In this document: positions 8,881 to 55,013 of the stretch, piece by piece
How the letters are laid out: each line of letters starts with the position of its first letter
How positions within the stretch are numbered: position 1 is the first letter of the stretch
Assembly (NCBI RefSeq): GCF_018143015.1
Contig: NC_054747.1
Span: 1,673,736-1,737,735, forward strand
From: Lytechinus variegatus
Taxonomy: Eukaryota; Echinodermata; Echinoidea; Temnopleuroida; Toxopneustidae
Length of the DNA: 64,000 bases
Direction: 5' to 3'
Translations under genes and position numbers: made by a program
Notes under the pieces: model-generated
Seen by the model: only the letters and a program-made list of their open reading frames with translations
What the model was told of the DNA's origin: nothing
Database searches by the model: none

Positions 8881-10725
8881 GATTAAGAAGAAATCTCAAG
8901 AGAAGAGGGGTACTTGCAAAAGGGAAGTTCTTTCATGCAAATAAAAAAGATTAAAATTAAAATAATCCTCGCACATAACTGTTAACAACCTGATGCAATG
9001 TTGATGAGTCTTAAGTAAACTTCGGAACACTTCTCAAATTCCGAGAAAAACAAATATCATTAATAGAGATTTTTAGGAGCAGTGAACGAGAACGACGTAG
9101 CAGTTGTCTGATCATTCGAGTCAACGTCGTCATCTGCCCTTTTTCACTACAGATGCGAATATATTTCACTCGACTTGTACGTGTACGTACGTCCACGTGT
9201 ACGTCCTCGTGAAACAGCGCGATAACCAGCGGGTCATGACACGCAGCGGCTGCCCGACCCGAAAGATCAGGTGTACCATCGCCTTGCGACCCGGTCGGGT
9301 GCAACTTGTGCACACTTGCCCTTTCACTTGCTTTTATTCTTTTTTTACGCGAGTTAGGATATATATCGACATATATTTTGGATATCAGAAAGCAATTTCA
9401 AATATGATGAACATATTGCATCGTAAAACTTGCATTAAGTTTGTGAAAAGTCACTGAAAACTGTGTTCTAAAAAGGAAAGGTTGATCTTCATGCCGGGCT
9501 TGAACGGTTAAAATGACTTTACTAACGTGTACGTCCAATACGATTTTGGAGAACCGCAAAATGGATGTGGCGGGGTTTTCGATTCTGATAGTGGGCGTGT
9601 GTGAGGATCTGAGGCATATGGAACACCAAAAAATGACGTCATTAGTCGTCTATGTCGACGTGCATTTCTAAAAGCGCTAAATGACCAGGAGAGAACGATG
9701 ACCATTTTCATAAAATGAACTATTATGGTGAATTTGCCCTCCAATGGTAACTACCATCGTAACATGACCCAGAGTCCAATCAAAATCAAGAATTCCATAG
9801 AAGTTGCCTTTTAATGCCAAAGCTACCGTAATGATAACCTTTATGCAACGGGCCCTAGTGTTTATTTTTGAACTAAATTAATACTGTCAATTATTGCAAC
9901 TTACGTGTCCTTAGAAGAAACGTCACGATCAAATCTGGTTACACTTTTGTTAGTTTCCATCTTAAGATTATAACGAACAGCCTGGATATGCTCAATGGGA
10001 TCCAACAAAATTGTCACCATATTTGATCGTGAATTATTTTTTTAAACGGTTAGTAATGTTAATAGTATGATACCGTCTACCTTTTAATATGTCCGTGTTG
10101 AATCCTTTGATCGGGACAGTATAGTATTATTTAGAAATACAGAGTATGAAGCGCTAAATTATCAATTTCATTAATATCATTGTTTTGATTATTATTATTG
10201 TTTTTGTTATTATTATCATTATTATTTTTCATTAATACTGTTATTATTATTATCATCATTATCATCATCATTATCATGTGTTATTATTAAAAAGGCTTTG
10301 TTAATAGATTTATTATTTGAAGAGGGAGCAACTCTTGTGAAATCGTAGATGTTTATGATTTTCTGTAAGTTGCCATATCATATAAATGATCATATTGCAG
10401 CAAAGAGTGTTTTTCAAATTATATGGATACTAGTGGAATGATAATTATTTCAAATAGCCAGCCCGATGAAAAGTGAATAATCTTACTAACATTATTATGT
10501 TTATAAGGATAGGTCACACTTTCAACATGGCAAAATCAAACAAAAAAATGAATTAAAAAAAAAACTCTTAACACTTCATGTTGGCGCTCTTAACTTTGGG
10601 TAATGTGCCAGCATTGAGATTTTGTTTTGTAATTACACATTTACCAAGAATGCTTGTCGCTTTTTCATTCATTTAAATGCATGATAAAATAGCAATAGCT
10701 ATTTAATGCCTTGCTGCGGGGCGTA
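8881..10725. other. Non-coding stretch, no gene seen
   Basis: No supported gene. Includes an ATT/ATC-rich microsatellite at about 10185-10285. Open frames around 9.0-9.7 kb are short, overlap on both strands and show no domain. Confidence 0.45.
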
Positions 10726-10800
10726 GGTGCCGTGGCCGGAGATCGGACCTCGGACTTTCCATGTACAGCCAGGCGCCTTAGACCACTCGGCCACGGCACC
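10726..10800 (-). repeat. tRNA-like sequence (Leu/Ser-type head), tRNA-derived repeat
   Basis: On the minus strand the 75-base unit begins GGTGCCGTGGCC and ends GGCCACGGCACC, a 12-bp acceptor-like inverted repeat. It has a good D-arm (GCCGAGTGGTCTAAGGC), but the T-arm and anticodon stem do not pair properly. I read it as a tRNA pseudogene or SINE head; a working tRNA is unlikely. Confidence 0.55.
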
Positions 10801-11717: not shown

Positions 11718-14700
11718 ATGAGTTCGTCATTCGCTATCGGTAAGTGTAGTTTACAATTTGTTTTCTAGTGATAATAATCCCTTCATTTGTTCAAATTATA
11801 CTATTGCAAGGTGCATTGGGAGTGTTCATTCGGAATACTCTATCACTGCCTGTTGAGACGTTAATCAAGCCACACGCTATACCAAGCCGAATTTTTGTTC
11901 CATTAATGCGACTAATGGGGAAAACTGAAGCAGTTATTTTTTTTTCCATACAGCTAGTATTTTTACTAAAAATACGAGTAGATTTACCCAGAATGGATAT
12001 GTGCAATATTAAAGAGGAATTCTGACTAATAAATACATAGACTATCGCATCAAAATTTATTTATAGGCTGGCCGTACAGATCCTACTGAACTGTATATTT
12101 TGGGGCAAATAATTGTTAAATAAATAACATTGGAATTATAGAGCTCATGTATCCACCAATTACACCAGCTAAGATAGTCTACAAAATTTGGTGTGCAGAG
12201 CTTTATGAGGAATAACTGAATACCGGTACCCATTTACCTCAGCTGGGTTGAATGCAGCACAATGTAGGTAAATTTCTTGCTGAAAGAAATGACACGCCAT
12301 GGCTGGGAATCGAACCCATGTCCCTCAGAGTAAAAGGCGAGAGTCATAACCACTAGACCACGACGTCCCCAATCACCACGACGCCATATTATTATCTTTG
12401 AATGTTTAATGTTGACAGCTATTCGTCTGACAGTAATGCTCAGCTGTTTGTCTGCCAGCTTATCGGAAACAACATCCGATGTATCCATTACCGTTGGTGG
12501 TACAGCCAGGATACCATGTCCGTTCGATGAGGGCGCTGTACGAAACATCTTCTGGTTCTACCATGATGCATCTGGACCCCGAAGGATTTTAAGTCTTGCT
12601 AAGTATGTTGAAGTAATACATGAACCCTATACAGACAGAGCTGGCTTGGATAAGGACAACTCAACATTGATTCTTCAGGTATCTATGGGGTCAAGTACTT
12701 TATAATGATTTCCGTTGAAACAATTATTTCAAGGATACATGAGGATAATGCACTGTTGACCAAGATACTCCTCCTTTTTAATGAGATGACGATTTTTCGA
12801 AAGTATTCCACATGAAACTAGATTTACACTTATGAAATATAGTCAAACAATTAATGGTATAGGACGTCGTGCCGTGAGTCTGTGCATACTTTTATTTAGG
12901 TGATTGTGACAATAATAGTAGTCACCAGGCGATTATAACTTTACACCTGGCAAACACATTCAATACTTGACATTGCCTCAGAATACACCTTTCCTCATCA
13001 AAGAATATAAAGACATCAAATAGTGTATAGGTATTACAATATGAAAAATGTTGGGGCAGCGGTGTTTATATGATTTTACCAAATTCTTTTGAAATTTCAT
13101 GGTATCAGGAACGATGTAATGTTTCTTTTTTGTGGAATTTCGAAGAGGTTTATGTTTAATCTTTAGTTCATGTGTATATGCGCAAACAAGCTGCCCCCTC
13201 CCCAATTCAAAATCAATACAGACTATAGTTTGTACTATTTTTACTAGTGGGTTTGATTGGTCTAGATTGTAAGACTCTCGCATATATATATTTCTCACCT
13301 TTCAGGAAGTGACCATCGATGATCAAGGAACATATCGTTGCGAGGTTGACAGACCAGGGCAGCCGTCACTATTGAATATCACTACTACATTGAGTGTGTT
13401 TGGTAAGTATAACCATGATTCGAACATACAAACCTCCTACAGCAAGATGCGTTTTGGCATGTAGCAAATTTATATGACAGTATACAGTCATGAGAGTGAT
13501 CCTCATACATTAGAATTGTTATAATAGTCCTAAAGCCGGATATACAGAGAACAACAATAGGGTTCTTGATGTATCATGGACATTCAATTTTTAGTTAAAA
13601 AATGTTTGTAAACATTATGTCAGAATTATGTAACACCTGATTGTCAGCTGATATTTCAAATGAACGAATGTTGTCGGAAGTAGGCTTACATATCGAGTAA
13701 AATATATTTTTGATGGACAGATATGAGACCATGTTGATCTAAAATTAAGCCTTAGCTTTCATGATCAAATTTGGTTTTAGTATCTTTGACATAATGCCGT
13801 TGTTCATTGGTTGTTTCTTTCAATAATTTGTTTATATTATAAAGAAAAGCAAACAAACTGAATGATCGGAGACCTAAGACGACAAGCGACAGGAGTAAGA
13901 TTCACAAAATTATGAAAATCTTGTTACCACGCAGTCTTATCATTGAGATGGCAGCTCGAGCTAAAGCCTGGGTAATAATAGCAGCGCTTTGTATCCTCAG
14001 GCAAAAAGCGCTAAATAAATCCAGCTAATATTCTTATTATTAATAATATCATTATTATTTCCATTGTCCATAACTTGATATTCTGTTGGTATATAAAACA
14101 GCGACCAGACTTCTTCCAGAAATATAGGGTTATTGTTCTATATTCTATCCAATGGGTCCTCTTCTCATTGCTCACTTCTCTTTCTAATTCAAGACCTTCC
14201 GTGGGATAAGAGCTATTCCAAGCAATCTTGCCCTCTGTATCGTTTCAGAAGACACCTCGACTCCTAGAACAGCCAGAAAGCTTATTATTATTATTATCAT
14301 CATCATTAGTATTATCATTGTTATTATAACGTTAGAGATTGCTGGTTCTGTGTCCATTTTTGTTAGTGTAACTATGCTTAAACATGACACATAAGAAACG
14401 CAAAAATGCCTTCTCTCATGTTTTTCTCATTGTTGTAAACATAACTCAGTCTTATCTCCAGGAACCCCTCCGGTGATTCGGCAGTGTCTCCAAGAACAGA
14501 CAGACGGTTCACCCTGCACACTAACTAGTGAGGGACCTACCAACCTTACCTGTCAGTTAGCCAACGTATACCCGTAACCAATGTCTCACTTGGCTGGTAC
14601 CAAGATGGTCGTGGTCCGTTGGGAGCGCCCTTATCGATATCTGGAACCAAAGAGGATGGTAGTATTAACCTACAAACCAATGTCGAAGCGTTCGAGACCG

Positions 14701-17700
14701 GGGAATGGATGTGCAAGGCATCGTATCTCTCTGCAGATGGCGTCGAAGAAACGTCTGCCTCTATTTCACTCACCGTACTAGACAAGAGTGATACAGGTCA
14801 GTCAGTGTATCCGATTTACCATTTTAAACTTCACCATGTTTTTTTTTTTCCATTTAGAAGCCTACGTACATGTACTTCATGCATTTCATAACATTAAGTG
14901 ATACATTCGCAATCGAATTCACATTTATTTCAAGTCTGTTTTGAAGTTATCTCTGTGCATGGTCTATCTAAGTGGGATCAAGTTGTAAATATTCAACATG
15001 TAATTTCAAAATGGCCTTCCAAATAGTAAAACCAATAAAAATCAGTAGAAAAAAGTATCATTTTTTACAGGAAAGCAATATATCTCTAAATAACCTTGTT
15101 CGCCAGCATCAAAATGTAATTTCACTTTCAATGATATAACTTACTTATCATTGTTCCATTCCGTAGGTTCCCTGATTGATCCTGTGAAGATCGTGGTACC
15201 TATAGTCGTAGTGCTGGCTGTGATCGTAGTGATTGTAATCATTGCAATCGTGAGGAGAAGAAGGAATCGAAGACTTGAAGGTACCTTACAACTCGTTGTG
15301 TTCACTTGACTGTATCTTTTCTTTTATTCCACTTTACGGCTTCAAATTTTCACAGTATGAAGAAGAATATTGGACCTCTAGGGAGAACAGAGCCATTATA
15401 TCAATAGCTCTGAATAGAGTGATCCATCCGTATATTTTTATGTGCATGTTTACATATTTATATTTAGTATCATATCTTTTGCAATGTATTTTATTGTGAT
15501 TCTTATACGGTAAATAAAACCAAACCAAACCAATTGTTCTTTTAGATACTTATTTTTATTAATGTGGGGTTTTTTGAGACAAAATACCTATTTTGGCTAT
15601 TTACAGAGAACTTAACCTGGCAACTTATTGGTGGTTTGGGAGTGGTAGGTCACAATTATTCTGAGTAGGGAATTTTCACTCAGCCATAGACAGAGGATTC
15701 AAGAAAAGAGTAAACATATTGTCAATTGCCTGCCAAATGACAAAAAAGGATTTATAAGACTCGGTCGAAAATTGGTCAACCAAACCGCAGTTTCATACTA
15801 GTTTCAGAGCTAAAGGAATGCATTATTTCAATAATCAAGGGCTAGATCGTTCTTTGATTCACAAAATTACGAGAATTTGACATTACATTTATTCTATTCT
15901 CGAATATTGAGTAAGTCAAATAGCAATAAATCAATACTATGGAGTTCGGCCCCACGAAATTAAATAATTCTATCACAACGCACACAATTATACCAGTCCT
16001 TGAAGTGAACTAAAAAAAAGTATAGGCCTGGTACCTTTTATATCAATTTGCCGTTTAGGAGAATCTGTTTTACGTCAGGACGGACCTGAAGAATAGACGC
16101 AGACGTCGTATTTCAGAATTTCACAATCAATCTAACTGTGTCATCATTTAAGTAAAATGATGATGGCGCCAGGGATAACTCATAACAATCCTTAATTTTT
16201 GTTGGAGTGATAAAGTATGAACAAATGTGCGTATTTATCATATGACCCATGGAATTTCATGAAACCGAAACATGTTTTAACTCTCTCTTTTTTTTTAATA
16301 CAGCTAATGGACAGTACGGAGAGATAAAACCAGCTGAAAAGGTAGAGCTTGGTGACAAACTTTACGGTAGGACAATTGGCCTCATTTTTTTTCTTTTTCA
16401 ATAACATCTTGTCGTAAATATACATAGTTTATTCATACTAAAGTGATTCACTTCGGCCAACACGACATTGGAAATGTCGACCTGCCTTAGGAAGAACACA
16501 TTATTTGCTGCCATCTGACTTTGTGGATGTATTAAGTGCTGTATAAAAAGCGGTATATTATACGTATCATTAGTATTCAAATGAACACTTAAACATGTCA
16601 GCTATAATTCTTAGATTGGAAACAATTTTCAGTTTATTTGGTTGTAAGGAAAAGAAATTATAATCAATTATGATCTTAACAATGAACATTTTGCAAAAAT
16701 GAGAACACTATCTTTACGCAGTAGATTTTTTTCTTCAAAATATTGTTAAAGTAGTCGACGAGGGGTGTTAACATACACTATGAAAGGGGGTGTTGAATAC
16801 ATTATGCATTATTCTTTCGAAATGATAAGGAAAACAATAACTCTAAATACTTAGCATAACGAACACTGCAATGTTTTCGGCTTTCTTTTGGCACTGAATC
16901 TGAATTCAGGTAGCATCGATGATGGAATACTGGCCAACATCGCCGAGGAAGTGACGGACGAAAGCGACCTGTCGAAGCTTGGTCGACATCTTGGGATTCG
17001 ACAGTTCAAGTTGAATCAAATACTCAAGGAGAACGAACAGGCCAAAGACGTCTTCCCCGCCACATCCATGCTGTTCACCTGGAAGGAGAAAACACCCCCA
17101 GCCAAGCAAGTCCCCAAGATGGTAAAGGCTCTGGAACAGTCGGATATGGAGAACCTGATAACGGAATACTTTCCAAACGAAGGTGAGAAGTAAAAATAGG
17201 CGACTCCAAGATTTACTGGTTTTAACTTACCTCTTACAGTTTGATACACACATTTTGTTATTTACTCCTATATTTCTTTGGTTCAATTTATATGATTCAG
17301 GTAAAGTCGAAAGAAAATGATTTTTCCTAACTTGAACAGCAATTAGAGATAACGTCACTTTATTTTAGGAGCAAGTCTGGGGACGTCGCATTCAAGGCAA
17401 TGGTATTTTGAGCTCCCATTATGAAAAGGGAATTTAATATTTAGACTCGAAGTGCGAGTGGTTTAGACTAGTAAATATATTTCTTGTTTCTCAAGAGCAC
17501 CAAGAGTCAATGTATAATGTTCGTAAAAAAACTAGCCAAAACGCATATAAACTTTTTACCGCTCAAAACGAAATTTTTAATTGGTCCCAGATTATGATGA
17601 ATTTAACCAGTTCTTCTAGTCTTGGCTGAAAACCTCGGTGATGCGGAACATGCTTGATTATTTCTCTGCCTTCTCCCGTTAATTCATTCCTGTTCCCACC

Positions 17701-18074
17701 CCTAATTCAGATGGGTCAAAAACTATTACCATCGAATCCATGATTGTAAATAATATACATTGTCCACCATTAATTGTCCCCAACCTATCATTAATTGCCC
17801 TTAACTTTCAGCTGGAGTTACAGATAAGAGATTGTTTGAGCTAGCCGACAACATCCTAGATGCAGGGGCCATCGAACAGCTTGGCATCAACTTTGGCTTC
17901 AGGCAGTTCAAGGTTAACCAGTACCTCAACATGAACAAAGACCGTGGTGACCGTTCAGGGACTTTGGCAATGCTCCTGGAATGGAGGAAGAAGACACCTA
18001 GGACAGCCCAGATACGGGATCTAGTAGACGCCCTCAAGAACGCTGGTGCTGATGGTTCATTTAACAACAATTGA
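11718..18074 (+). CDS. Ig-Ig-TM-tandem death domain receptor, 8 exons, frameshifted
   Basis: Type I membrane receptor. Exons: 11718-11739, 12419-12678, 13306-13402, 14462-14796, 15167-15280, 16304-16366, 16910-17182 and 17812-18074, all with GT/AG borders. Exon 1 joined to exon 2 gives a signal peptide (MSSSFAI-AIRLTVMLSC). Exons 2-3 encode a V-type Ig (PCPF, FWFYHD, DDQGTYRCEV). Exon 4 encodes a C-type Ig (LTCQLANVYP, GWYQDG, EWMCKASY). Exon 5 is the membrane helix (IVVPIVVVLAVIVVIVIIAIV) followed by RRRRNRR. Exon 6 is a short linker with a YGEI motif. Exons 7 and 8 each encode one death domain. One base is missing at about 14574, giving a TAA at 14575-14577; allowing for it, the coding length is exactly 476 codons with stop. 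Death domains normally recruit adaptors or kinases by homotypic contact, so signalling from an Ig ligand-binding head is inferred. AATAAA signals lie at 18206 and 18248. Confidence 0.85.
12218..12370 (-). repeat. tRNA-derived SINE in intron 1 of the Ig receptor
   Basis: On the minus strand the head has GTGGTCTAGTGGTTATGAC (A-box region) and GGGTTCGATTCCC (B-box). A body ending near TAAATGGGTACCGG follows. It sits immediately upstream of exon 2. Confidence 0.7.
13960..14060 (+). repeat. SINE 3' tail fragment
   Basis: A GCGCTTT...AAAGCGCTAAATAAAT module runs into ATT repeats, like the 3' end of the SINE at 1306-1662. No clear tRNA head is seen, so it is a truncated copy within intron 3 of the Ig receptor. 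A second ATT/ATC-rich run follows at 14281-14330. Confidence 0.5.
14575..14577 (+). pseudogene. Premature stop from a 1-base deletion in exon 4 of the Ig receptor
   Basis: The frame entering from exon 3 reads ...CQLANVYP and then TAA. Continuing in the +1-shifted frame gives TNVSLGWYQDG and the rest of the Ig domain. The paralogous exon at 41945-42264 reads NVYPVKDAVLTWYQDG without interruption, so one G appears lost after CCC. Either the gene is a recent pseudogene or allele, or the assembly has an error. Confidence 0.8.
16910..17182 (+). CDS. Exon 7 of the Ig receptor: first death domain
   Basis: Encodes 91 residues forming a whole six-helix death domain: start IAEEVTDESDLSKLGRHLGI, the central Trp in LFTWKEKT, and a C-terminal helix ending NLITEYFP. 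Both flanking introns are phase 1, so the domain is a self-contained exon module. It precedes a second, related death domain. Confidence 0.85.
17812..18074 (+). CDS. Exon 8 of the Ig receptor: second death domain and stop
   Basis: Encodes 87 residues with the same helix pattern as the first death domain (FGFRQFKVNQYL versus LGIRQFKLNQIL; LLEWRKKTPRTAQ versus LFTWKEKTPPAKQ). It ends in a TGA soon after the last helix. The resemblance suggests the two arose by exon duplication. Confidence 0.85.
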
Positions 18075-20689: not shown

Positions 20690-20910
20690 CGGGGGGGGGC
20701 ATGGGGGCACAACCTGCCCCCCCCCCCCCCGACGGATTTCACCGGGACCAATAAAGAGAAAGGGAGATGGAAAGAAAGGGAAACGGAAAGGAAAGGATGA
20801 AAAGGGAAAATGGAAAAAATGAAAAATCTATCACATGATTAGAATTTAATTTCAATAGGCAATTTTTTCCCAGCTCGCTTTGATCGCTGGAGACTTTTTA
20901 CAGCTTTTCT
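20690..20910. repeat. Interspersed repeat with poly-G/poly-C and purine-rich body
   Basis: A G-run and C-run pair is followed by AAAGGGAAA-type purine tracts and a stretch resembling the repeats at 22590-22745, 22835-23030 and 59825-60100 (shared phrase AATCTATCACA, then a TCGCTTTGCTCG-like motif). Confidence 0.45.
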
Positions 20911-20914
20911 CACA

Positions 20915-22414
20915 TTGCTATGTTTTTCCCCTTCAAAATACTTGGTTCATTACGCAACTGTGTTCGCTCCCATTCTTTCTTACCTTGTTAACTTAAGTTT
21001 AGAGCAGTCGCATGTCCCGTCCTCTCTGAAATGCGCTCATGTTACACCACTGTTAAAGAAACCCTCTCTTGATCCCGATTCTCTCCAAAATTACCGACCG
21101 GTTTCTAACTTACCCTTCCTCTTCAAAGTCCTTGAAAGGATTGCTTTCTCTAGTCTTGCTGAATACTTTCACGACAATAATATGTTCGACCCATTTCAAT
21201 CTGCCTACAGACCCCACCACAGTGTGGAAATCCTTCTTGTGAGCACCTCAAATCATATCCTCCAAGAGATGGACCGAGGGCGTGTGACTGCTTAACTCTT
21301 ACTCGATCTATCCTTCACTTTCGACACAGTAAACCATACTTATGCTGAATAATTTAAGTTCGTTTGGTGTCAGAGGTGAAGCATTCAAATGGTTTGAATC
21401 CTATCTTTCTTCCCATTCACATATTGTATGTATAAATGGCTGTCAATCAGCTGTTTCACCTCTGACCCATGGCGTACCGCAGGGTTCTGTGGGCGGACCG
21501 ACCCTTTTCTCAATTTACATGATTGGATTGCGGCAAGTGATGCTCCGTCACGGAATTGACTACCGTATTTACGCTGACGACATTCAAATTATTATTTCTT
21601 TTGACTCAACTCAGCAAGCAGCTGATTATGCTATTCATCGTCTTCAATTATGTATGATTGATGTTCACGACTGGATGCAAACCCATTCTTTGAAACTAAA
21701 CTTGGTTAAGTGTGAATTTCTTTTGTTTGGCTCTAAAGTGCAGCTCAACAAAATTGATGTCAATTCCTTTTCATTTTCTGGCCACACAATTCATTTGTCT
21801 CAAACTTGCCGTAATCTTGGAGTAAATTTTGATTCACACATGACGATGTCTTCCCAAATTTCAAATATCTGCAAATCAGTTCGGTATCATCTTCGCAATC
21901 TAGGATTTATCCGGAAATATTTATCTAAGTCCGCGACCGAAAAGATAGTACATGCCTTGATTTCCTCCCGCCTTGATTTTTGTAATGCCCTTTTGTTTAA
22001 TTTACCGCTCGCATTGTCACTTTTTAAAGTAAACGCTCACATATCACCCCCATCTTATGTTCGCTGCACTGGCTCCCTATAAAAAACCGGATTATCTTTA
22101 AGATTTTGTTACTTGCCTTTCATAGTATTCGTGGATCAGCACCACAATACAGTCTTTCATTTACCAATCACTACAGACCAGGCAGATCTTTGCGCTCATC
22201 CACCTCTGGCTTACTTGTCATTCCGAAAGTTTCAAAAACTTGGGGGGAAAGATCATTTCCTTTTGCATGCCCCACTTTGTGGAATAGCCTTCCTGAAGAC
22301 ATAAAAATATGTACCTCTGTAGAAACTTTCAAAAAACTTTGCTATTTAACTCTTAGCTCTTTATGCGCCTTGAGCACTCTACATAGTCATTATTATTGTG
22401 AATGTGTTGTGTAA
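20915..22414 (+). pseudogene. Degraded L2/CR1-like non-LTR retrotransposon (RT to 3' end)
   Basis: Three consecutive open frames (20915-21295, 21342-22082, 22106-22414) read through one reverse transcriptase. The first has [30 protein letters not shown]. The second has GVPQGSVGGPTLFSIYM and the catalytic YADDIQ, then thumb-like sequence. The third is the C-terminal RSLRSSTSGLLV...CPTLWNSLPEDI tail typical of the CR1/L2 group. A stop at 21293-21295, a shift before 21342, and a deletion near 22015-22080 break the frame. No endonuclease is seen upstream, so it is 5' truncated and dead. Confidence 0.85.
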
Positions 22415-29699: not shown

Positions 29700-31012
29700 T
29701 TGGGGATAAGTCCAATTTTTTTTTCCAGACCCGATTAATTAAAAAAATATTATTTAAGTCCAAAGTCTATTTTCCAGACCCAGTTAATTAAAAAAATGTC
29801 ATATAAGTCCAAAGTCTTTTTTTCCAGACCCAGTTAATTAAAAAAGTATTATATAAGTCCAAAGTCTTTTTTCCTGACCCGGTTAATTAAAAAATAATGA
29901 TATTAGTCCAAAGTCTTTTTTCCAGACCCAGTTAATTAAAAAAATGTTATATAAGTCCAAAGTCTTTTTTTCCAGACCCAGTTAATTAAAAAAATATTAT
30001 ATAAGTCCAAAGTCTTTTTCCAGACCCGGTTAATTGAAAAATTATACCAGTTCAGTTTCCATTATTCATATACAGAAATTTACATGCTTGACATGATTAT
30101 AACATAATTATCTTCGGTTGAAACATATGGTTCTTGAGACAAAATTTATACGCAATAAAAATTTAAATCAGTGAAAAATGGAGGGACCTAAATTGAAAGC
30201 AAAGTTTGTGAGTTATAGGCCCCAATGGAAAAAAGGAGATAAGATAAAAAGCTATATAGTTATTAAAATTAAAAGGTAAGAGAAAAACAAAAGTTTATGA
30301 ACCAATTGGTTTATGAAATAATATCAGTCCAAAGTCTTTTTTTCCTGACCCAGTTAATTGAAAAATAATGATATTAGTCCAAAGTCTTTTTTCCAGACCC
30401 AGTTAATCAAAAAAATGTTATATAAGTCCAAAGTCTTTTTTTCCAGACCCAGTTAATTAAAAAAATATTATATAAGTCCAGTCTTTTTTTCCAGCCCCGG
30501 TTGATTAAAAAATTATGATATCAGTCCAAAGTCTATTTTCCAGACCCAGTTAATTAAAAAAAAGTTATATAAGTCCAAAGTCTTTTTTCCAGACCCAGTT
30601 AATTAAAAAAATATTTTATAAGTCCAAAGTCTTTTTCCAGACCCGGTTAATTGAAAAATTATATCAGTTCAGTTTCCATTATTCATATACAGAATTTTAC
30701 ATGCTTGACATGATTATAACATAATCATCTTCGGTTGAAACATATGGTTCTTGAGACAAAATTTATACGCAATAAAAATTTAAATCAGTGAAAAATGGAG
30801 GGACCTAAGTTGAAAGCAAAGTTTGTGAGTTATAGGCCCCAATGGAAAAAAGGAGATAAGATAAAAAGCTATATAGTTATTAAAATTAAAAGGTAAGAGA
30901 AAAACAAAAGTTTATGAACCAATTGGTTTATGAAATAATATCAGTCCAAAGTCTTTTTTTTCCAGACCCAGTTAATTAAAAAAAAATTATATAAGTCCAA
31001 AGTCTTTTTTCC
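29700..31012 (+). repeat. Left inner minisatellite, about 48-bp unit, with higher-order repeat
   Basis: Units contain CCAGACCCAGTTAATTAAAA followed by ATTATATAAGTCCAAAGTC. Blocks of units alternate with a 275-bp unique segment that occurs twice (starting near 30051 and 30668). This gives a higher-order period of about 617 bp. The array continues after the Penelope insertion at 34877. Confidence 0.9.
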
Positions 31013-31020
31013 AGACCCAG
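31013..31020 (+). other. Target site duplication, left copy (AGACCCAG)
   Basis: The same eight bases occur at 34877-34884, directly after the other end of the Penelope-like element. Removing the element and one copy restores a normal unit of the surrounding minisatellite. Confidence 0.75.
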
Positions 31021-31717
31021 GAACTCCGCCGACACACACACCACCGCCGCCGACACCTCGCTACAACCTCCGCCGACAACCTCCGCCGACGACCCAACAC
31101 CTCATCCGTACACCAGGCCACCCACTCACTCCCGCCGAAGCTCACCCGACGAGTCCGCCGACCAACACGCACAGAACGCCACCATTGATGTACACACCGC
31201 CGACTCACACACACGCCGCCGTAACTCACGCCGCCCTCTACTCACCACGTCCGCATACGACGCCCACTCGTTTCCCGCCAAAAACCGCCGACCCACACAC
31301 AGAGCGCCACCTACGACGTCAACCCGCCGTGACCGCCGGCCCAGAGCTTTCCCCCACGTCCGCACGAACGCCATAAGTACCGCCGCACGCCGAGCGAACA
31401 CTCACTCCTGAAGACGGACAGTCAACCTGTCCGAAACGTCGAGTCTCTCTACTACTCATCATCTCTACTCGCCGACGCAAGCCAGCATCTCCTCATCAGC
31501 TCTACTACTCAAGCTGTTCTCACTCAACATTCCTTCTGGTTTACAGTCCTTTTCAGGACTATTCTCAAGAAAGAATACTCTATTCTCAAATCTCCACTTT
31601 CTCGCCTATCCACTTCCTCCTCTTCCTCTATCCACTGCTGCTATAACACTCCACATGGTGTACCGTAAACCACATCAGCAATTGTACATGCCACCATGCA
31701 AACCTTCAAACAACATC
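31021..31717 (+). repeat. 5' pseudo-LTR of the Penelope-like element
   Basis: 697-bp C-rich direct repeat, matched at 34193-34876. By eye the only clear difference is an extra 13-base unit (CCTCCGCCGACAA) near 31070-31083. It ends 22 bases after the start codon of the element's ORF. Confidence 0.85.
31404..31444 (+). ncRNA. Hammerhead-ribozyme-like motif in the 5' pLTR
   Basis: Order of parts: ACTC, CTGAAGA (core CUGANGA), a hairpin with stem GGACAG/CTGTCC, GAAAC (core GAAA), GTC (cleavage triplet), GAGT pairing with the initial ACTC. Helix I is open, helix II is six pairs, helix III would be only AC/GU. ACGU is self-complementary, which could allow a dimeric form. Penelope-like elements are known to carry hammerhead motifs in their pLTRs. 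One odd point: the base after CUGANGA (C31415) has no ordinary partner if GAAA is kept intact. Confidence 0.55.
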
Positions 31718-34347
31718 TGACTCAGCTCTACGGGGAGCCTACTCAACGCACCGCCAGGCAACTTCAGCGCGACGTAGTCAAATCAGCCAAGCTTACCAAC
31801 CACCTCACCTTCCTCAAACGCTGCCGCGACTCCGACATCATACCGCCAGGACTCCAACTCAAATCTTCCGTCGACACCCCGAAAGCTAAACGCATCCTGC
31901 ACCAAGCCAGCTTAGACCTCACTCGCGAACGCATCGCACGCACCCGACACCAACTCCACGATCTCAACTCAAGCATCACTTCTACTCAAACTCAACTTAG
32001 CCGACGACTCAAACCAGACGATCTAGATAAAGTTCAGGCATTCAACGACTACACATCTCGCAAAACCTTCCAGTCCACCAAGCTAAAACAAATCAACAAG
32101 TTCGACCGACTCTACTCCCGCAAGCCTACGCAAGCCAACCAACAACCTTCGACCGAAGCAACCAAGGATACCGTAATCAACCTTAGCCGACACCAACTTA
32201 CCCAAGCCGAACACAAAGTACTCTCCCTCGGACTCAACTTCGCCGTAGCTCCTAAGAAGATCCCTTTCTCCGACATCGTACAGCAAGTCGAACCCAAGCT
32301 CCGCTTTCTCTCCAAAGAGGCTGCCAACGCAATTAGACTCAAGGTAACCAATGCCCTCTCCGACGCCAAGCCACCTAAACAGAACCTGTCCAAAGAAGAA
32401 CGCTCTGCTATCCAGGACCTCCGACGTAACCAAGCCATTCACATCCTTCAGGCTGACAAGGGCAACGCCACCGTTATCATGGACCAAGACGCATACGATG
32501 ACAAGATCGAAGAGATTCTCCAAGACAAGGACACCTACTCCAAACTCAACAGAGACCCAACTCAGGCCAACGAAAGGAAAATCAACCAACAACTGCTGAC
32601 CCTACACCGATCCGATGCACTACCCAAGGCACTCTACTTCCAACTCAGATCGTCTTCAGCCAAGTCACCTATCTTATTCGGACAACCCAAGATACACAAG
32701 CCTAACACTCCTCTCCGCCCTATCATCTCCACTCGTGGGTCACCCTGCTACAACACAGCACGCCATCTGGCCAACATCCTCCAACCACTCGTAGGCCTGA
32801 CCCAGCACCATGTCACCAACTCCAAGCACTTCATAGACGTCATCTCCAAAACCAAGATCCGGCCCTCCGACACACTCGTCAGCTTTGATGTCGTCTCCCT
32901 CTTCACCAGCGTACCTGTAGACCAAGCATGTGACATCATCAAGCAACGCCTGATCACCGACTCAGACCTAGCATCCAGAACCAATCTCACACCAGACCAG
33001 ATCCATGACCTCCTCCTCACCTGTCTCAACTCCAACTCCTTCAAATGGCGCAACAACTACTACAAACAACTACAAGGAGCAGCCATGGGTTCACCTCTCT
33101 CACCAATCATCGCTAACATATTCATGGAACACTTTGAGCACCAAGCACTCAAGACTGCGGACAAGCCTCCTTCACTCTGGCTCCGCTACGTCGACGACAC
33201 CTTTGTCATCTGGCCGCACAGCACACCCGACCTTCACCAGTTTCTCAACCACCTCAACAACCAGCACCCTAGCATCAAGTTCACCATGGAGACCCAACAC
33301 GACAACTCAATTCCATTTCTAGACGTTCTCATCACCAAGACACCGTCTGGATTCCCATCTCACCAGGTGTACCGAAAACCTACCCACACAGACCGCTACC
33401 TCAACTTCCGCTCACACCACCACCCGTCCATCCACCAATCAGTCGCCGACACTCTCGTCAGACGAGCCCACCAACTCAGCGACAAGGCACACTTACATCA
33501 AGAACTCAAGCACGTGACCAATGCACTCACCTCCATCAACCACTACCCCAGAAGAAGGATCAAGACTCAACCACCCAGCCACCAACCCAGCACCGACAGC
33601 ACCGAAAACCCATCCGAAACCAAGCCCGTCGCCACCATAGTACTACCCTACATCGGCAAGACTTCACACCGACTACAACGCATCCTTCACTCTGCCAACA
33701 TCCTCGTCAGACACCAATCCTCTCGAAAACTACACTCCATCCTTCACTCTCATAAGGACAAGCACCCATCCAACAAACAACCAGGCGTCTACAAGATCCC
33801 CTGCGACTGCGGTAAAGTCTACATTGGGGAAACCGGCCGAGACTTCGACACCAGACTCAAAGAACACAAGACCCACCACCGACGCAGCGACTGGGACCGA
33901 TCCGCCATCGTCAAGCACGCACAACAAGAGAATCACCGCATAGAATGGGAAAGGAGCCACCTAATCACCAACATCCGGCACTGGAATACCAGAAGGGTCA
34001 GGGAAGCCATTGAGATACATCAACACAACACTGTGCCTCAAGACCCTGGCCTCCACATCAACAGCATCTGGCACCCAATCCTACGCCACCATCAAACTTC
34101 TAACCAATCCACAAACAACCAGCCGTCCACCGTCACTCCACCGAGCCCTCCTACCCAACACAGCAGTCTGATTGCATCACCAACTCAACCAGGAACTCCG
34201 CCGACACACACACCACCGCCGCCGACACCTCGCTACAACCTCCGCCGACGACCCAACACCTCATCCGTACACCAGGCCACCCACTCACTCCCGCCGAAGC
34301 TCACCCGACGAGTCCGCCGACCAACACGCACAGAACGCCACCATTGA
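31696..34347 (+). CDS. Penelope-like element RT with GIY-YIG endonuclease, intact
   Basis: An 883-codon ORF for the retroelement polyprotein, which would copy the element RNA at a nicked target. Visible in order: a basic helical N-terminus; RT motif A with FDVVSLF at about residues 397-403; motif B GAAMGSPLSP at 461-470; catalytic YVDD at 498-501; NSIPFLDVLI and the PTHTDRYLNF block; then a GIY-YIG nuclease starting GVYKIPCDCGKVYIGETGR at about 697, with downstream EH and REAIEIHQ. The last 51 codons and stop lie in the 3' pLTR, and the first seven codons lie in the 5' pLTR (context GCCACCATGC). No frameshift or stop interrupts it. The C-rich codons differ sharply from the AT-rich surroundings. 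Confidence 0.93.
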   Translation: MQTFKQHLTQLYGEPTQRTARQLQRDVVKSAKLTNHLTFLKRCRDSDIIPPGLQLKSSVDTPKAKRILHQASLDLTRERIARTRHQLHDLNSSITSTQTQLSRRLKPDDLDKVQAFNDYTSRKTFQSTKLKQINKFDRLYSRKPTQANQQPSTEATKDTVINLSRHQLTQAEHKVLSLGLNFAVAPKKIPFSDIVQQVEPKLRFLSKEAANAIRLKVTNALSDAKPPKQNLSKEERSAIQDLRRNQAIHILQADKGNATVIMDQDAYDDKIEEILQDKDTYSKLNRDPTQANERKINQQLLTLHRSDALPKALYFQLRSSSAKSPILFGQPKIHKPNTPLRPIISTRGSPCYNTARHLANILQPLVGLTQHHVTNSKHFIDVISKTKIRPSDTLVSFDVVSLFTSVPVDQACDIIKQRLITDSDLASRTNLTPDQIHDLLLTCLNSNSFKWRNNYYKQLQGAAMGSPLSPIIANIFMEHFEHQALKTADKPPSLWLRYVDDTFVIWPHSTPDLHQFLNHLNNQHPSIKFTMETQHDNSIPFLDVLITKTPSGFPSHQVYRKPTHTDRYLNFRSHHHPSIHQSVADTLVRRAHQLSDKAHLHQELKHVTNALTSINHYPRRRIKTQPPSHQPSTDSTENPSETKPVATIVLPYIGKTSHRLQRILHSANILVRHQSSRKLHSILHSHKDKHPSNKQPGVYKIPCDCGKVYIGETGRDFDTRLKEHKTHHRRSDWDRSAIVKHAQQENHRIEWERSHLITNIRHWNTRRVREAIEIHQHNTVPQDPGLHINSIWHPILRHHQTSNQSTNNQPSTVTPPSPPTQHSSLIASPTQPGTPPTHTPPPPTPRYNLRRRPNTSSVHQATHSLPPKLTRRVRRPTRTERHH

Positions 34348-34876
34348 TGTACACACCGCCGACTCACACACACGCCGCCGTAACTCACGCCGCCCTCTAC
34401 TCACCACGTCCGCATACGACGCCCACTCGTTTCCCGCCAAAAACCGCCGACCCACACACAGAGCGCCACCTACGACGTCAACCCGCCGTGACCGCCGGCC
34501 CAGAGCTTTCCCCCACGTCCGCACGAACGCCATAAGTACCGCCGCACGCCGAGCGAACACTCACTCCTGAAGACGGACAGTCAACCTGTCCGAAACGTCG
34601 AGTCTCTCTACTACTCATCATCTCTACTCGCCGACGCAAGCCAGCATCTCCTCATCAGCTCTACTACTCAAGCTGTTCTCACTCAACATTCCTTCTGGTT
34701 TACAGTCCTTTTCAGGACTATTCTCAAGAAAGAATACTCTATTCTCAAATCTCCACTTTCTCGCCTATCCACTTCCTCCTCTTCCTCTATCCACTGCTGC
34801 TATAACACTCCACATGGTGTACCGTAAACCACATCAGCAATTGTACATGCCACCATGCAAACCTTCAAACAACATC
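34193..34876 (+). repeat. 3' pseudo-LTR of the Penelope-like element
   Basis: 684-bp direct repeat of 31021-31717. Codes for the C-terminus of the RT ORF up to 34347, then repeats the hammerhead-like motif and ends with the start-codon region. A target duplication follows immediately. Confidence 0.85.
34563..34603 (+). ncRNA. Hammerhead-ribozyme-like motif in the 3' pLTR
   Basis: Identical to 31404-31444 (offset 3159). Two copies one element-length apart would let a transcript be cut at both pLTRs. Confidence 0.55.
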
Positions 34877-35600
34877 AGACCCAGTTAATTGAAAAAATAT
34901 TATATAAGTCCAAAGTCTTTTTCCAGACCCGGTTAATCAAAAAATTATGATATCCGTCCAAATTCTTTTCTCCAGACCCAGTTCTTTAGAAAAATGTTGT
35001 ATAAGTCTAAAGTCTTTTTTTCCAGACCCGATAGATTAAAAAATTATGATATCAGTCCAAAGTCTATTTTCCAGACCCAATTAATTAAAAAAATGTAATA
35101 TAAGTCCAGTCTTTTTTCCAGACCCGGTTAATTAAAAAATTATGATATCCGTCCAAAGTTTTTTTTTTCCAGACCCAGTTAATTAAAAAAAAATTATATA
35201 AGTCCAAAGTCTTTTTTTCCAGACCCAGTTAATTGAAAAAATATTACATAAGTCCAAAGTCTTTTTCCAGACCCGGTTAATTAAAAAATTATGATATCCG
35301 TCCAAATTCTTTTCTCCAGACCCAGTTGTTTAAAAAAATGTTGTATAAGTCTAGTCTTTTTTTCCAGACCCGGTAGATTAAAAAATTATGATATCAGTCC
35401 AAAGTCTATTTTCCAGACCCAGTTAATTCAAAAATTATGATATCAGTCCAAAGTCTTTTTTCCAGACCCAGTTAATTAAAAAATGTTTTAAAAAAAGTCC
35501 AGTCTTTTTTCCAGACCCGGTTAATTAAAAAATTATGAAATAAGTCCAAAGTCTTGTTTCCAGACCTGTTTATTTAAAAAAATATAATATAGGTCCAAAC
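34877..35600 (+). repeat. Left inner minisatellite, continuation after the insertion
   Basis: Same unit of about 48 bp as 29700-31012 (CCAGACCCGGTTAATTAAAA..., TATCCGTCCAAA). The first eight bases are the right copy of the target duplication. Confidence 0.85.
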
Positions 35601-38489: not shown

Positions 38490-39900
38490 GGTCAAGATTA
38501 CGCTTGATTCTCAATTTACTCTTAGCGCATGTATTCACAATTATACACCAAATAAGTTTAAACAACTACAGACATTAATTCCACCAGTCTTCATTAACTG
38601 TGCTTGGAGAAAAGACTAATCTCGATTCTCATTTTTATTCCACTGGAATATCATTATTGTATCTTAGTTTGGACTTATATTATAATTTTTGAAATACCAG
38701 GGTCTAAAAGAAGACAAGATTTTGGACATATCGTATAATTTGTTTAACAACTGGTCTGGAAAAAAGACATTGGACTTATATTTCAATTTTTGAATTAACC
38801 GGGTCTGGAAAAAAGACTACGCTTGATTCTCAATTTACTCTTAGCGCATGTATTCACAATAATACACCAAATAAGTTAAAATAACTACAGACATTAATTT
38901 CACCAGTCTTCATGAACCGGATCTGGAGAAAAGAATAAGCTCGATTTTCATTTTTATTCCACTGGAATATCATTATCGTATCTTAGTTTGGACTTATATT
39001 GTAATTTTTGAAATACCAGGGTCTAAAAAAAGACAAGATTTTGGACATATCGTATAATTTGTTTAACAACTGGTCTGGAACAAAGACTTTGCACTTTTGT
39101 GCTATATGAATGCATTACTATAGGGTTTCAGTTATTAGTTTTAAGAAACCAGGTCTGGAAAAAAGACTACGCTTGATTCTCGATTTACTCTTATCGCATA
39201 TATTCACAATATAAGCCATATAAGTTGAAACAACAAAGACATTAGTTCTACCGGTCTTAATTAACTGGGTCTGGAGAAAAGACTACGCTCGATTCTGATG
39301 ATTGGTGATTGGTGATTCTCATTTTTATTCCACTGGAATATCATTATCGTATCTTAGTTTGGACTTATATTTCAATTTTTTAATTAACCGGGTCTGGAAA
39401 AAAGACTTTGGACATATCGTATAATTTGTTTAACAACTGGGTCTGGAAAAAAGACTTTGGTCTTAGATTTCAATTTTTGAATTAACCGGGTTTGGAAAAA
39501 AGACTACGCTTGATTGTCAATTTACTATTAGCGCATGTATTCACAAAAATACACCAAATAAGTTGAAACAACTACAGACATTAATTCCACCAGCCTTCAT
39601 TAACTGGGTCTGAAGAAAAGATTAAGATCGATTCTCATTTTTATTCCACTGGAATGTCATTATCGCATCTTAGTTTGGAATTTTATTATAATTTTTGACA
39701 TAACTGGGTCTGGAAAAAGACTTTGGAATTATATCATAATTTTTTAAACAACCGGGTCTGGAAAAAAGACTTTGGACTTACATAATGATTTTTTAAACAA
39801 CCGGGTCTGGAAAAAAATACTTTGGACTTATATAATAATTATTTAAACAACCTGGTCTGGAAAAAGACTATGGACTTATCTCCAACAAAGACTGCACTTT
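38490..39900 (-). repeat. Right inner arm with four-copy tandem of about 318-351 bp
   Basis: GCTTGATTCTCAATTTACT-type starts recur near 38502, 38821, 39171 and 39508. Each unit contains the inverse of the left-arm motifs (AACTGGGTCTGGAAAAAAGAC, TTTGGACTTATAT). The arm is organised differently from the left one, so the two have evolved separately. Confidence 0.8.
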
Positions 39901-40160: not shown

Positions 40161-41053
40161 TGCAACAGGGGTTGTGTAAATTTTTTCGATGAAACTCACA
40201 AGTGAAGCAACGGACCTTGCCATTGGGGCGCTTTGGAATTTTCTAAAGTGAATTTGAAGGATTTTGTGCACACTTGTTAATTTTGTGAATATTTTCTCTA
40301 AAAGTGTTATTCTTTTTTAAGGGGGGGGTTATCCCTCTGCCCCCCCCCCCCGACGGCTGCGTACGGCAATGGGTTGACTGACCCAACATTTGTTCTCTGT
40401 GAAGGCCTTTTTTTTAGTTTGAGGGGGGGGGGGTGTTTTTTAATAATGAGTCTATTTTTTTCGAGGGCCAGACATGACATAACAGGCCAACTTTATATTT
40501 AAAAGAAACTATTTATAAAAAGAGAGATCGCAAAAATGTTGATCGTTTAGTGCAACAATCTAATTTTGTTACAGATTTGGACATACATGTAATATATAAA
40601 GATATGAATATATATCGAATTCCCCGTTTTCCATGGTCCTCATGCCCTACATCTGCAATCACGAATGAAATGAAAAACATGTTATCCTTACGTCAGGTGT
40701 TATCGTGGAACCTATTAAACGGAATTCATAAGTTTTGCATAAACTTCTGGGCATGATGGATTACCCATTCTGACTAAACTCTTTTAGGGAATCATTCATA
40801 TTTTTTTCCAATCTTTAAATTATAGTTTCCATAATGAATGATGTCATTATTCTAGACCTTTTGCATTGTCCTCATTGCGACGCCATCTTAGAGGCTGATG
40901 CGATTGCCTTGAATGCCTTGGTCAGTTGGTGATCTGCAGCTGGCGTATCTCTGACAACTATGTTTACGTGCATTCCTATATCCTCTGAGGGAGGGCGCTA
41001 TGATATTGTAAAATCATATGCATAAGGTCTATTGTTTTTCTTACAATTTCCAG

Positions 41054-42264
41054 CGATTGTCATAGTATTATCGGCCTGTGCATCAATGACCGTCGCTGAA
41101 ACCACCCAAGAACTGTCTGCAACAGTCGGAGACGAGGTTAATATAACATGTCTCTTCGGGGAGGGGACGTTACGAAATATATATTGGTACTTTAACATTA
41201 CTCAAAGGATCCTCACCCTTGCCAAGGGTGTCCTGAACGTCGAACCACCATATATAGGTCGTGCAACTTTGCAGAATGACAATAACACACTGTCTCTCAA
41301 AGACATAATCATTGCTGATGAAGGGACCTATCGATGCGATGTGGACCGACAAGGACAGCCGGCGGTTCTTCACATCTATTCTGATCTGAATATTTACAGT
41401 AAGATTCGTTGTTTTATTTTACTTTCAAATATCTCCAAGGTGCATCATCCATACAGCAACACATGAATAAGTGCACATCTTCCTTTTCACGGGATGTAAA
41501 CACATACGAGTTCATCCAAAGATCTACCTCAATGAGACACTAAATTAAACAGGTTTACATTTTTTTAAATCATACTTGAAATGGCCCTTCATGACAGTTG
41601 ACAATAAAATGTAATTTAGGGATAATCCGAATGTGGATTGTCATTGAATAAAGGGAACATTTTCAAATAATATCAATTTGATGAATTAAGCCTTCGTTCT
41701 GTACAGTATATGCGTTAAGACAATTGCAATGATTATAATAGTGATATCTTTTTTTTTTAAATAGGAATGGTAGTTGACTTATGGACCTAATGGTTGCCAT
41801 TGCAACAATGATGCTGGAGCTAGAGGTGCAATCGGTTGTTCATCCATAGAATTCTATTAATATTTGTCGTAGTACTATCGTCATTGGTTGTATCAATGAG
41901 TAATTACCATTTGATCAAGTGCCACTCTATTATGTTTAATTTAGGTCTCCGCCGTGGTATCCTTCCAGTTGTTTCTCCCTGCGCCATGGTTGGTGAGGCC
42001 ACGCACTGTACAGCTCAAGCCAATGACACATTCACCATAACCTGCACACTCTTCAATGTGTATCCTGTAAAGGATGCAGTCCTTACCTGGTACCAAGATG
42101 GCAAATCAGTGTCATCCTCTTATGGCGAAACCTTGAACAATGACGTAATCGCCAATCTGAGTCTGCGCATTGAGGTCACCCAATCAAGGAACTTATCCTG
42201 CAACGCCACATTTGTGTCGGCTGATGGAAGGCAGCACACTGCAGTGTCAGTTGATGCGTGGATC
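41054..42264 (+). CDS. Second Ig receptor: V-type and C-type Ig exons, cut by gap
   Basis: Paralogue of the receptor at 11.7-18.1 kb. Exon 41054-41398 (donor ACA|GTAAGA) encodes the end of a signal peptide (IVIVLSACASMTVAE) and a whole V-type Ig: VNITCLFGEG, LRNIYWYF, RILTLAKG, DEGTYRCDVD. Exon 41945-42264 (after TTTAG) encodes a C-type Ig: CTLFNVYP, LTWYQDGKS, NLSCNATFVSADG; it is open into the N gap. Junctions are phase 1 as in the paralogue. Unlike the first gene, the V domain is a single exon here. The first coding exon is not identified upstream. Membrane and death-domain exons are not visible after the gap, so they are either inside it, lost, or replaced. Family members probably differ in ligand, because the V domains are well diverged. 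Confidence 0.8.
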
Positions 42265-42764
42265 NNNNNNNNNNNNNNNNNNNNNNNNNNNNNNNNNNNN
42301 NNNNNNNNNNNNNNNNNNNNNNNNNNNNNNNNNNNNNNNNNNNNNNNNNNNNNNNNNNNNNNNNNNNNNNNNNNNNNNNNNNNNNNNNNNNNNNNNNNNN
42401 NNNNNNNNNNNNNNNNNNNNNNNNNNNNNNNNNNNNNNNNNNNNNNNNNNNNNNNNNNNNNNNNNNNNNNNNNNNNNNNNNNNNNNNNNNNNNNNNNNNN
42501 NNNNNNNNNNNNNNNNNNNNNNNNNNNNNNNNNNNNNNNNNNNNNNNNNNNNNNNNNNNNNNNNNNNNNNNNNNNNNNNNNNNNNNNNNNNNNNNNNNNN
42601 NNNNNNNNNNNNNNNNNNNNNNNNNNNNNNNNNNNNNNNNNNNNNNNNNNNNNNNNNNNNNNNNNNNNNNNNNNNNNNNNNNNNNNNNNNNNNNNNNNNN
42701 NNNNNNNNNNNNNNNNNNNNNNNNNNNNNNNNNNNNNNNNNNNNNNNNNNNNNNNNNNNNNNNN
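42265..42764. other. Assembly gap (500 N)
   Basis: Exactly 500 N bases, a conventional placeholder, so the true gap length is unknown. It interrupts the second Ig receptor. Confidence 0.99.
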
Positions 42765-47324: not shown

Positions 47325-47398
47325 CGGAGCGTGGCCGAGTGGTCGAAGGCGCCTGGGTATACATAAAATGTCCGGGGTTCGATCCCGGCCGCGGCACC
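47325..47398 (+). repeat. tRNA-like sequence (Leu/Ser-type) with perfect T-arm
   Basis: Contains GTGGCCGAGTGGTCGAAGGC (D-arm region) and a perfect 17-base T-arm CCGGGGTTCGATCCCGG. The acceptor ends do not pair well and no anticodon stem forms. Same family as 10726-10800. Most likely a tRNA-derived repeat. Confidence 0.55.
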
Positions 47399-47639
47399 TA
47401 TGCCCGTGAGCATGCATTTGATCGACATTGCTCTTTTATCCTGTATTCAAACAAATGGAAATGCTATATGCGTTCTTGGTAACTAGGTGTGCACTTGTTA
47501 ATAAAAATAATCCAATCGACAATTACATGTGATGGAAAACAAATTCTGAAATTATTATATATATAATACAATACATACATAGATTCGAGTCAACAAATCC
47601 ACCGCACCTTTTAGAGAATTTTTTCTAGTAATCATGAAC

Positions 47640-53970: not shown

Positions 53971-55013
53971 GCGTAAAAATGGCAGAGGTAAAAATGGCAA
54001 AGATTAAAATGGCAGAGGTAAAAATGGCTAAGGTAAAAATGCAGAGGTAAAAATGGCAGAGGTAAAAATGGCAGAGGTAAAAATGGCAGAGGTAAAAATG
54101 GCAAAGGTAAAAATGGCAGAGGTAAAAATGGCAGAGGTAAAAATGGCAGAGGTAAAAATGGCAAAGGTAAAAATGGCAGAGGTAGAAATGGCAAAGGTAA
54201 AAATGGCAGAGGTAGAAATGGCAGAGGTAAAAATGGCAGAGGTAAAAATGGCAGAGGTAAAAATGGCAGAGGTAAAAATGGCAAAGGTAAAAATGGCAGA
54301 GGTAAAAATGGCAGAGGTAAAAATGGCAGAGGTAGAAATGGCAAAGGTAGAAATGGCAGAGGTAGAAATGGCAAAGGTAGAAATGGCAGAGGTAGAAATG
54401 GCAGATGTAAAAATGGCAGAGGTAAAAATGGCAGAGGTAGAAATGGCAGAGGTAAAAATGGCAGAGGTAAAAATGGCAGAGGTAAAAATGGCAGAGGTAA
54501 AAATGGCAGAGGTAAAAATGGCAGAGGTAAAAATGGCAGAGGTAGAAATGGCAGAGGTAAAAATGGCAGAGGTAAAAATGGCAGAGGTAAAAATGGCAGA
54601 GGTAAAAATGGCAGAGGTAGAAATGGCAGAGGTAAAAATGGCAGAGGTAAAAATGGCAAAGGTAAAAATGGCAGAGGTAAAAATGGCAGAGGTAGAAATG
54701 GCAGAGGTAGAAATGGCAGAGGTAAAAATGGCAGAGGTAAAAATGGCAGAGGTAAAAATGGCAAAGGTAAAAATGGCAGACGTAAAAATGGCAGAGGTAA
54801 AAATGGCAGAGGTAGAAATGGCAAAGGTAAAAATGGCAGAGGTAAAAATGGCAGAGGTAAAAATGGCAGAGGTAAAAATGGCAGAGGTAAAAATGGCAGA
54901 GGTAAAAATGGCAGAGGTAAAAATGGCAGAGGTAAAAATGGCAGAGGTAAAAATGGCAGAGGTAAAAATGGCAAAGGTAAAAATGGCAGAGGTAAAAATG
55001 GCAGAGGTAAAAA
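53971..55013 (+). repeat. 15-bp minisatellite (GGTAAAAATGGCAGA), about 69 units
   Basis: Nearly uniform array with A/G variation at two positions (AAAATGG versus GAAATGG; GCAGAG versus GCAAAG). Because 15 is divisible by three and the unit has no stop, several frames on both strands stay open for more than 300 codons. The MAEVK and FYLCH repeat translations are not genes. Confidence 0.97.

Follow-up and report, generated by a model that had tools for sequence, protein, structure and literature searches.

At the cell surface, signaling through death domains is known mostly from receptors of the TNFR or UNC5 type. The UNC5 netrin receptors carry immunoglobulin (Ig) domains and TSP1 repeats outside the cell and place ZU5 and UPA before the death domain inside it. 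TNFR-type death receptors (Fas, TNFR1, and p75NTR) are likewise single-pass proteins with a cytoplasmic death domain, and receptors of the IL-1R and Toll-like classes carry a cytoplasmic TIR domain. In the B7, butyrophilin (BTN), and JAM proteins (CD276, CD86, BTN, and JAM), a V-set and then a C-type Ig domain sit in a single-pass protein; we know of no death-domain tail in these last three families. Here, we describe a locus of the sea urchin Lytechinus variegatus (Toxopneustidae), found in a 64,000-nucleotide stretch of contig NC_054747.1 (the window). Eight exons on the plus strand, at positions 11718 to 18074, appear to encode the parts of a receptor that combines features of these classes. 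With moderate confidence, we read the gene as the L. variegatus copy of a type I single-pass Ig superfamily receptor with a signal peptide, a V-set and a C-type Ig domain, a membrane helix, a short linker, and two death domains, which would signal by clustering.

Two database proteins, both annotated as uncharacterized, served for comparison with the known classes: L. pictus LOC129266547 (P0001; 477 residues), whose frame is unbroken and whose domain order is that of the window gene, and the more diverged L. variegatus LOC121419506 (P0006; 701 residues). Models for ZU5, UPA, TIR, TSP1, and the TNFR repeat gave zero matches in P0001 or P0006 at an E value of 0.1. Thus, in its modules, the receptor is neither UNC5-like nor IL-1R-like, in agreement with an earlier note on this DNA that had set it apart from both. 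It shares with UNC5 an Ig domain outside and a death domain inside, but it has no TSP1, ZU5, or UPA match and carries two death domains instead of one. Compared to TNFR-type receptors, it has an Ig head, no match to the TNFR cysteine-rich repeat, and, again, two death domains.

The head, of a type known from immune co-stimulatory proteins, resembles that of the B7, butyrophilin, and JAM proteins in having a V-set and then a C-type Ig domain. In the B7 family (CD80/CD86), a V-C Ig head is expected above a single membrane helix, and this arrangement is present here, with the C-type part assigned by homology and by a structural model. Our best reading is a lineage-restricted B7-like receptor with an acquired death-domain tail, although the sequences would support shared descent with B7, butyrophilin, or JAM no further than the Ig superfamily on present evidence. 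According to passages of PMC11599192, its authors found no sea urchin protein that was convincing as a homologue of CD28, CTLA4, or ICOS. An echinoderm precedent is the sea cucumber protein AjNLRC4, a membrane receptor described in passages of PMC8699970 as binding microbes via its Ig domain. Like the window gene, it joins an outward Ig domain to a signaling module; it differs in having NACHT in place of death domains and two membrane segments. As a receptor of the Ig superfamily whose output would come from death domains, the protein shows a combination of parts that is apparently undescribed. No receptor with Ig domains, a membrane helix, and two death domains was found in the open-licence literature among the matches listed, or in the passages available from PMC2575513, PMC2772990, PMC11999971, PMC2246300, PMC8195603, and PMC8699970, which agrees with the remark in the earlier note that the architecture is not a standard one.

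Domains, relatives, and predicted folds

The domain matches are far above chance in sequence comparison. In the window's own translation, the V-set domain scored 36.7 bits (Pfam cut-off, 26), and Death (PF00531) scored 33.7 bits in exon 7 and 26.7 bits in exon 8 (cut-off, 22.6), and the same order of domains recurs in the independent L. pictus protein. Between the two death domains, identity is 34% over 77 residues. Over 19 residues, the hydropathy of the membrane stretch is 3.72 in P0002, the public L. variegatus model (which has the same sequence as the window there), and 3.59 in P0001. An NCBIfam scan of P0001 and P0006 returned no meaningful family, with every match far below its cut-off.

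The second Ig domain is best described as C-type by homology and by the strands of its predicted structure, without a Pfam pass in this gene. In P0001 and in P0003, an L. pictus relative, no C-type Ig model passed its Pfam cut-off for that domain. The C1-set model (cut-off, 21 bits) scored 14.3 in P0003, 21.7 in the Strongylocentrotus purpuratus relative P0005, and 21.0 in a second copy near 41 kb of the window, with no listed match in P0001; at an E value of 0.1, it matched three of five heads.

Protein searches, which find only relatives that share five-residue words and are of similar length, were run with different parts of the gene. The 311 residues from exon 4 after its frame break (described below) to exon 8 retrieved three proteins at an E value of ≤10 among 2640 candidates, all of them from Lytechinus. 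These were P0001 (89% identity over the full query; E value, 2.2e-174), P0002 (LOC121420746; 266 residues; 100% identity across 86% of the query), and P0003 (LOC129266548; 420 residues; 94% identity across 57%). The death-domain part of P0001 likewise returned only P0001 to P0003 at an E value of ≤10 among 551 candidates. A spread of this architecture over echinoderms and hemichordates, for which the earlier note had suggested a search, was therefore not borne out by these queries. With the Ig head of P0001, six proteins were found at an E value of ≤1 among 840 candidates: P0001, P0002, and P0003, the S. purpuratus proteins annotated as “CD86-like” (P0004; 55% to this head) and “CD80-like” (P0005; 43%), and P0006 (about 38% identity in the head).

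These relatives differ in their tails. Pfam found no death domain in predicted P0004 or P0005; past the signal peptide, P0004 has no membrane-like stretch (best hydropathy, 0.81), and P0005 has one, followed by a short tail. P0006 has a V-C Ig head, a membrane helix, a long linker in which an acidic repeat of 20 residues occurs eight times, and two death-type domains. The first of these is 36.8% identical to death domain 2 over 57 residues and was not picked up by Pfam, and the second (residues 634 to 695) is the sole Pfam Death stretch of the protein, at 27.0 bits (cut-off, 22.6). Of the five death domains in the set labeled A5, four matched. Taken together, these proteins form, to judge from their sequences, a small sea urchin family in which the Ig head occurs with and without a death-domain tail. 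The contigs that carry P0002 and P0006 are equal in length, and so are those of P0004 and P0005; this suggests that each pair shares one chromosome, in L. variegatus and in S. purpuratus, respectively.

The second copy in the window is a V-C pair at 41053 to 42264, which is identical to P0006 at 82% (V) and 85% (C) and to P0001 at 43% (V) and 29% (C). When the two death domains and P0006 were used as tblastn queries, no convincing match appeared past this copy or elsewhere in the window (leftovers at an E value of ≥6), but the gap behind the copy, which is of uncertain length, could hide death-domain exons.

Exons 1 to 3 of the window gene are together 81.7% identical to P0001 over 126 residues (values for single exons are given in Table 1). 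The death domains are the most conserved parts, and identity is lower in exons 1 to 3 and in exon 4 past its break, which fits a changing head on a constrained signaling tail.

We also considered predicted structures. AlphaFold2, run on P0001 with six aligned proteins, placed strands at residues 37 to 110 and 149 to 235, a helix at 247 to 278, and further helices at 304 to 386 (six) and 395 to 467 (five). Means of the predicted local distance difference test (pLDDT) over ten residues were 67 to 85 in death domain 1 and 74 to 90 in death domain 2. The P0006 model (mean pLDDT, 51.1) has five helices at 481 to 561 (ten-residue means, 46 to 85), and its last domain is of low confidence. In a fold search with the P0001 model, the best 50 matches held Ig proteins, including B7-H3, PD-L1, and BTN chains; with the P0006 model, the best 50 were Ig proteins or antibody complexes, including CD2, JAML, CD48, and B7-1. 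Both searches bear on the Ig part only. A profile of the Ig head, compared to solved structures with both domains covered, matched CD276/B7-H3, CD86, and JAM and also T-cell receptors and antibody light chains.

Gene model, frame break, and competing readings

The eight-exon model of the earlier note held in its number of exons and in its introns, all seven of which have GT...AG borders. As read from the open frame of each exon, six of the seven are in phase 1; the exception, in phase 0, interrupts the V domain. Phase-1 introns lie on all sides of the membrane, linker, and death-domain exons. The start of exon 4 had to be revised. P0001 and P0003 carry four extra residues, VLSP, at the join of exons 3 and 4, and the window yields VLSP with an acceptor 12 bases upstream; residues are present at this join in P0004 to P0006, too. 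Alignment to P0001 and P0003 thus makes 14450, and not 14462, the most likely first base of exon 4.

Table 1. Positions in the window of the exons of the receptor gene, its frame break, and the Ig domains of the second family member
Feature	Position	Strand	Content	Identity to P0001
Exon 1	11718..11739	+	Start codon and first signal-peptide residues, MSSSFAI; the same 7 residues open P0001	
Exon 2	12419..12678	+	Remaining signal peptide and larger first part of V-set Ig	81.6% (87 aa)
Exon 3	13306..13402	+	End of V-set Ig (DQGTYRCEV)	75% (36 aa)
Exon 4	14450..14796	+	Putative C-type Ig domain; acceptor 14450 (vs 14462) suits the L. pictus proteins	Before break, 89.2% (37 aa); after break, 82.2% (73 aligned columns)
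Frame break in exon 4	14571..14577	+	Upstream frame stops at TAA, 14575-14577; downstream frame one base off, open to exon 8	
Exon 5	15167..15280	+	Membrane helix, then basic stop-transfer residues (hydropathy and P0001 model)	86.8% (38 aa)
Exon 6	16304..16366	+	Juxtamembrane linker; part of the ITAM-like spacing	81.0% (21 aa)
Exon 7	16910..17182	+	Death domain 1; Pfam Death, 33.7 bits	95.6% (91 aa)
Exon 8	17812..18074	+	Death domain 2 and stop codon; Pfam Death, 26.7 bits	92.0% (87 aa)
V-set Ig, second family member	41053..41399	+	V domain encoded by a single exon, unlike in the first gene	
C-type Ig, second family member	41944..42264	+	Cut by a 500-N gap (42265-42764) right after the domain	

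The frame that enters exon 4 from exon 3 ends at a TAA (Table 1), and the 3′ part of the exon is open in a frame shifted by one base, which runs into exons 5 to 8. The earlier note had read continuously through this exon and made no mention of the break, and that reading has to be given up. With its frame interrupted there, the L. variegatus gene as assembled cannot make the full receptor; the product before the break consists of the signal peptide and the V-set domain. The proposed order of a V-C Ig head, membrane helix, linker, and tandem death domains was nevertheless recovered in this one gene, in P0001, and, with the long linker, in P0006. An intron inside exon 4 that would account for the TAA was considered and rejected, since P0001 and P0003 cross the position of the break without losing a residue.

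If the break is real and fixed, the L. variegatus gene would be a young pseudogene, or it would now encode only a headless protein of membrane helix, linker, and two death domains. The break is indeed present in the assembled sequence, and the public model P0002 begins after it and has no full Ig domain. However, no other disabling change was seen in the splice sites, which are intact, or in the other seven exons, all of which are open, and this argues for either a recent change or an assembly error. Exons 1 to 3 still keep the identity to P0001 given above, and the death domains remain 92 to 96% identical to it. In addition, a 500-N assembly gap lies about 28 kb downstream in the same window, so the assembly is not of finished quality here. 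The source of the break may be an assembly error, an allele, or a young pseudogene, and we consider a fixed break possible but doubtful.

Several other results, besides the break and the headless public model, weigh against a full receptor with two death domains. The overall confidence of the P0001 model is low (mean pLDDT, 63.8; predicted template modeling score, 0.30). The fold-search matches listed were Ig matches for both models, so they are silent on the death domains. When a profile of the tail was compared to solved structures, the best match was PIDD at an E value of 0.017, which is not significant (single-sequence searches gave 0.12 and 0.032), and it was followed by the death domains of RIPK1 and TNFR1 mixed with unrelated proteins. 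We therefore set aside a relationship between PIDD and death domain 1, although PIDD is the nearest solved match. In P0003, the end of the C-type Ig domain runs directly into death domain 1, which is what skipping of exons 5 and 6 would give, and nothing else past the signal peptide is strongly hydrophobic (best, 1.29); this form may be a real skipped product or a fault of the model. Finally, the proteins that join Ig and death domains are all database models.

The receptor could also serve in adhesion or self-recognition. Its head would then bind an Ig-like protein on another cell, and its death domains would act as a scaffold, e.g., in the control of Rho or NF-kB, and not in killing. The Ig-head profile matches to JAM, CD86, CD276, and SYG-2 and the P0006 model matches to CD2, JAML, and CD48 are in line with this, and the p75NTR death domain is described in passages of PMC4739766 as binding RhoGDI and the CARD of RIP2. 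However, the Ig matches include antibodies and T-cell receptors, say little about the ligand, and give no specific tie to adhesion. We regard this alternative as reasonable but, on the whole, rather unlikely.

A sequence with the spacing of an immunoreceptor tyrosine-based activation motif (ITAM), YGEI-12 residues-YGSI, spans exon 6 and the first codons of exon 7, and we treat it as a lead only. The ITAM pattern, YxxL/I-x6-12-YxxL/I, lies in receptor tails and is used by SH2 kinases. As an ITAM-bearing receptor, the protein would recruit a Syk-type kinase through YGEI-x12-YGSI in its linker, and the death domains would be a second output. The motif is present in the L. variegatus tail and in the L. 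pictus P0001 tail, and such a motif arose in 196 of 20,000 sequences obtained by shuffling the whole tail and in 91 of 20,000 obtained from the juxtamembrane 33-mer. However, the two Lytechinus tails are too similar to count as independent, the tails of P0006 and P0005 lack the motif, and its second tyrosine falls on the border of death domain 1. The motif was also spotted first and tested afterwards, and we find this reading very unlikely.

Least likely of all is that two neighboring genes, one for an Ig protein and the other for a death-domain protein, were wrongly joined by the earlier note and by the gene predictors: the joined proteins are database models and the S. purpuratus relatives carry the head alone, but the frame is open without a stop from the C-type Ig domain via the membrane exon to the death domains, the phase-1 junctions match, exon 6 lacks a stop codon, and the same join recurs in P0001, P0002, and, diverged, P0006.

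Other features of the window

On the minus strand, a frizzled-type cysteine-rich (Fz) domain at 1793 to 2377 (Pfam Fz, 63.3 bits; cut-off, 32.1) is followed downstream by a threonine-rich stretch at 722 to 1432, which is mucin-like at 20.9 bits, below the cut-off of 34.7. The two are perhaps parts of one secreted or membrane protein.

Several features relate to mobile elements and repeats. An open frame of 892 residues at 31669 to 34344 has reverse transcriptase and GIY-YIG domains, a make-up that we take to be that of a Penelope-like element. In the frames before and after it, stretches of 99 residues (30939 to 31373 and 34104 to 34532) and 111 residues (31333 to 31665 and 34492 to 34824) recur unchanged, as repeated ends would. 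Arrays of a 48- to 49-base unit with CCAGACCCAGTTAATTAAAAAA lie at 29706 to 30662, 34876 to 35599, and 39358 to 39879, flanking the element on both sides; the third array is reversed. A reverse transcriptase split in two frames lies at 20843 to 22079, where the second piece scored 62.2 bits and the first scored 23.5 bits (below the cut-off of 29.6). An open frame at 60639 to 61262 on the minus strand has zf-RVT, a zinc-binding domain of reverse transcriptases (27.6 bits; cut-off, 27.5). At 53973 to 55013, a 15-base unit (GTAAAAATGGCAGAG) repeated in tandem about 70 times gives long open frames in several frames, which are not genes, and a shorter array in the opposite orientation lies at 56818 to 56945. 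Sequences at about 10720 to 10800 and 47330 to 47400 look by eye like tRNA-leucine and are perhaps remnants of short interspersed nuclear elements; neither ARAGORN nor Rfam at its gathering threshold found a tRNA in the window.

Proposed signaling and its meaning

We propose that the receptor, in its intact form, would sit at the cell surface, bind a ligand, cluster, and signal. A ligand on a microbe or on another cell, possibly another Ig protein, would cluster it. The paired death domains, brought together, would then meet and seed a death-domain assembly, and this assembly might recruit adaptors and lead to a caspase or NF-kB output, by analogy with TNFR1, Fas, or the PIDD-RAIDD complex. 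According to passages of PMC8195603, death domains act by assembling with other death domains. Two death domains per chain should lower the threshold for such an assembly. Passages of PMC2246300 give S. purpuratus 87 death domains, compared to 31 in humans, and 42 caspases, so signaling partners are likely to exist. The gene could thus represent an undescribed receptor that turns contact with microbes or cells into an inflammatory or cell-death signal.

The death-domain tail was probably added to the Ig head by exon shuffling via phase-1 introns, because the head is found with and without it. A bolder proposal, which we offer only tentatively, is that Lytechinus built a class of death receptors of its own, independent of TNFR and UNC5. 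Here, a B7/CD86-like V-C head would be fused to tandem death domains, so that a dimer gathers four of them and could nucleate an assembly, perhaps with an ITAM-type second output, at a fast-changing, duplicated locus.

If our reading of the gene is true, death-domain signaling at the cell surface would have a further route of independent origin, in which a B7-like Ig head connects directly to two death domains, and this route would sit in an animal group rich in death domains. Since close relatives differ in the presence of the tail, the family would offer a chance to watch exon shuffling give a recognition head a new output, with the head-only relatives as natural controls.

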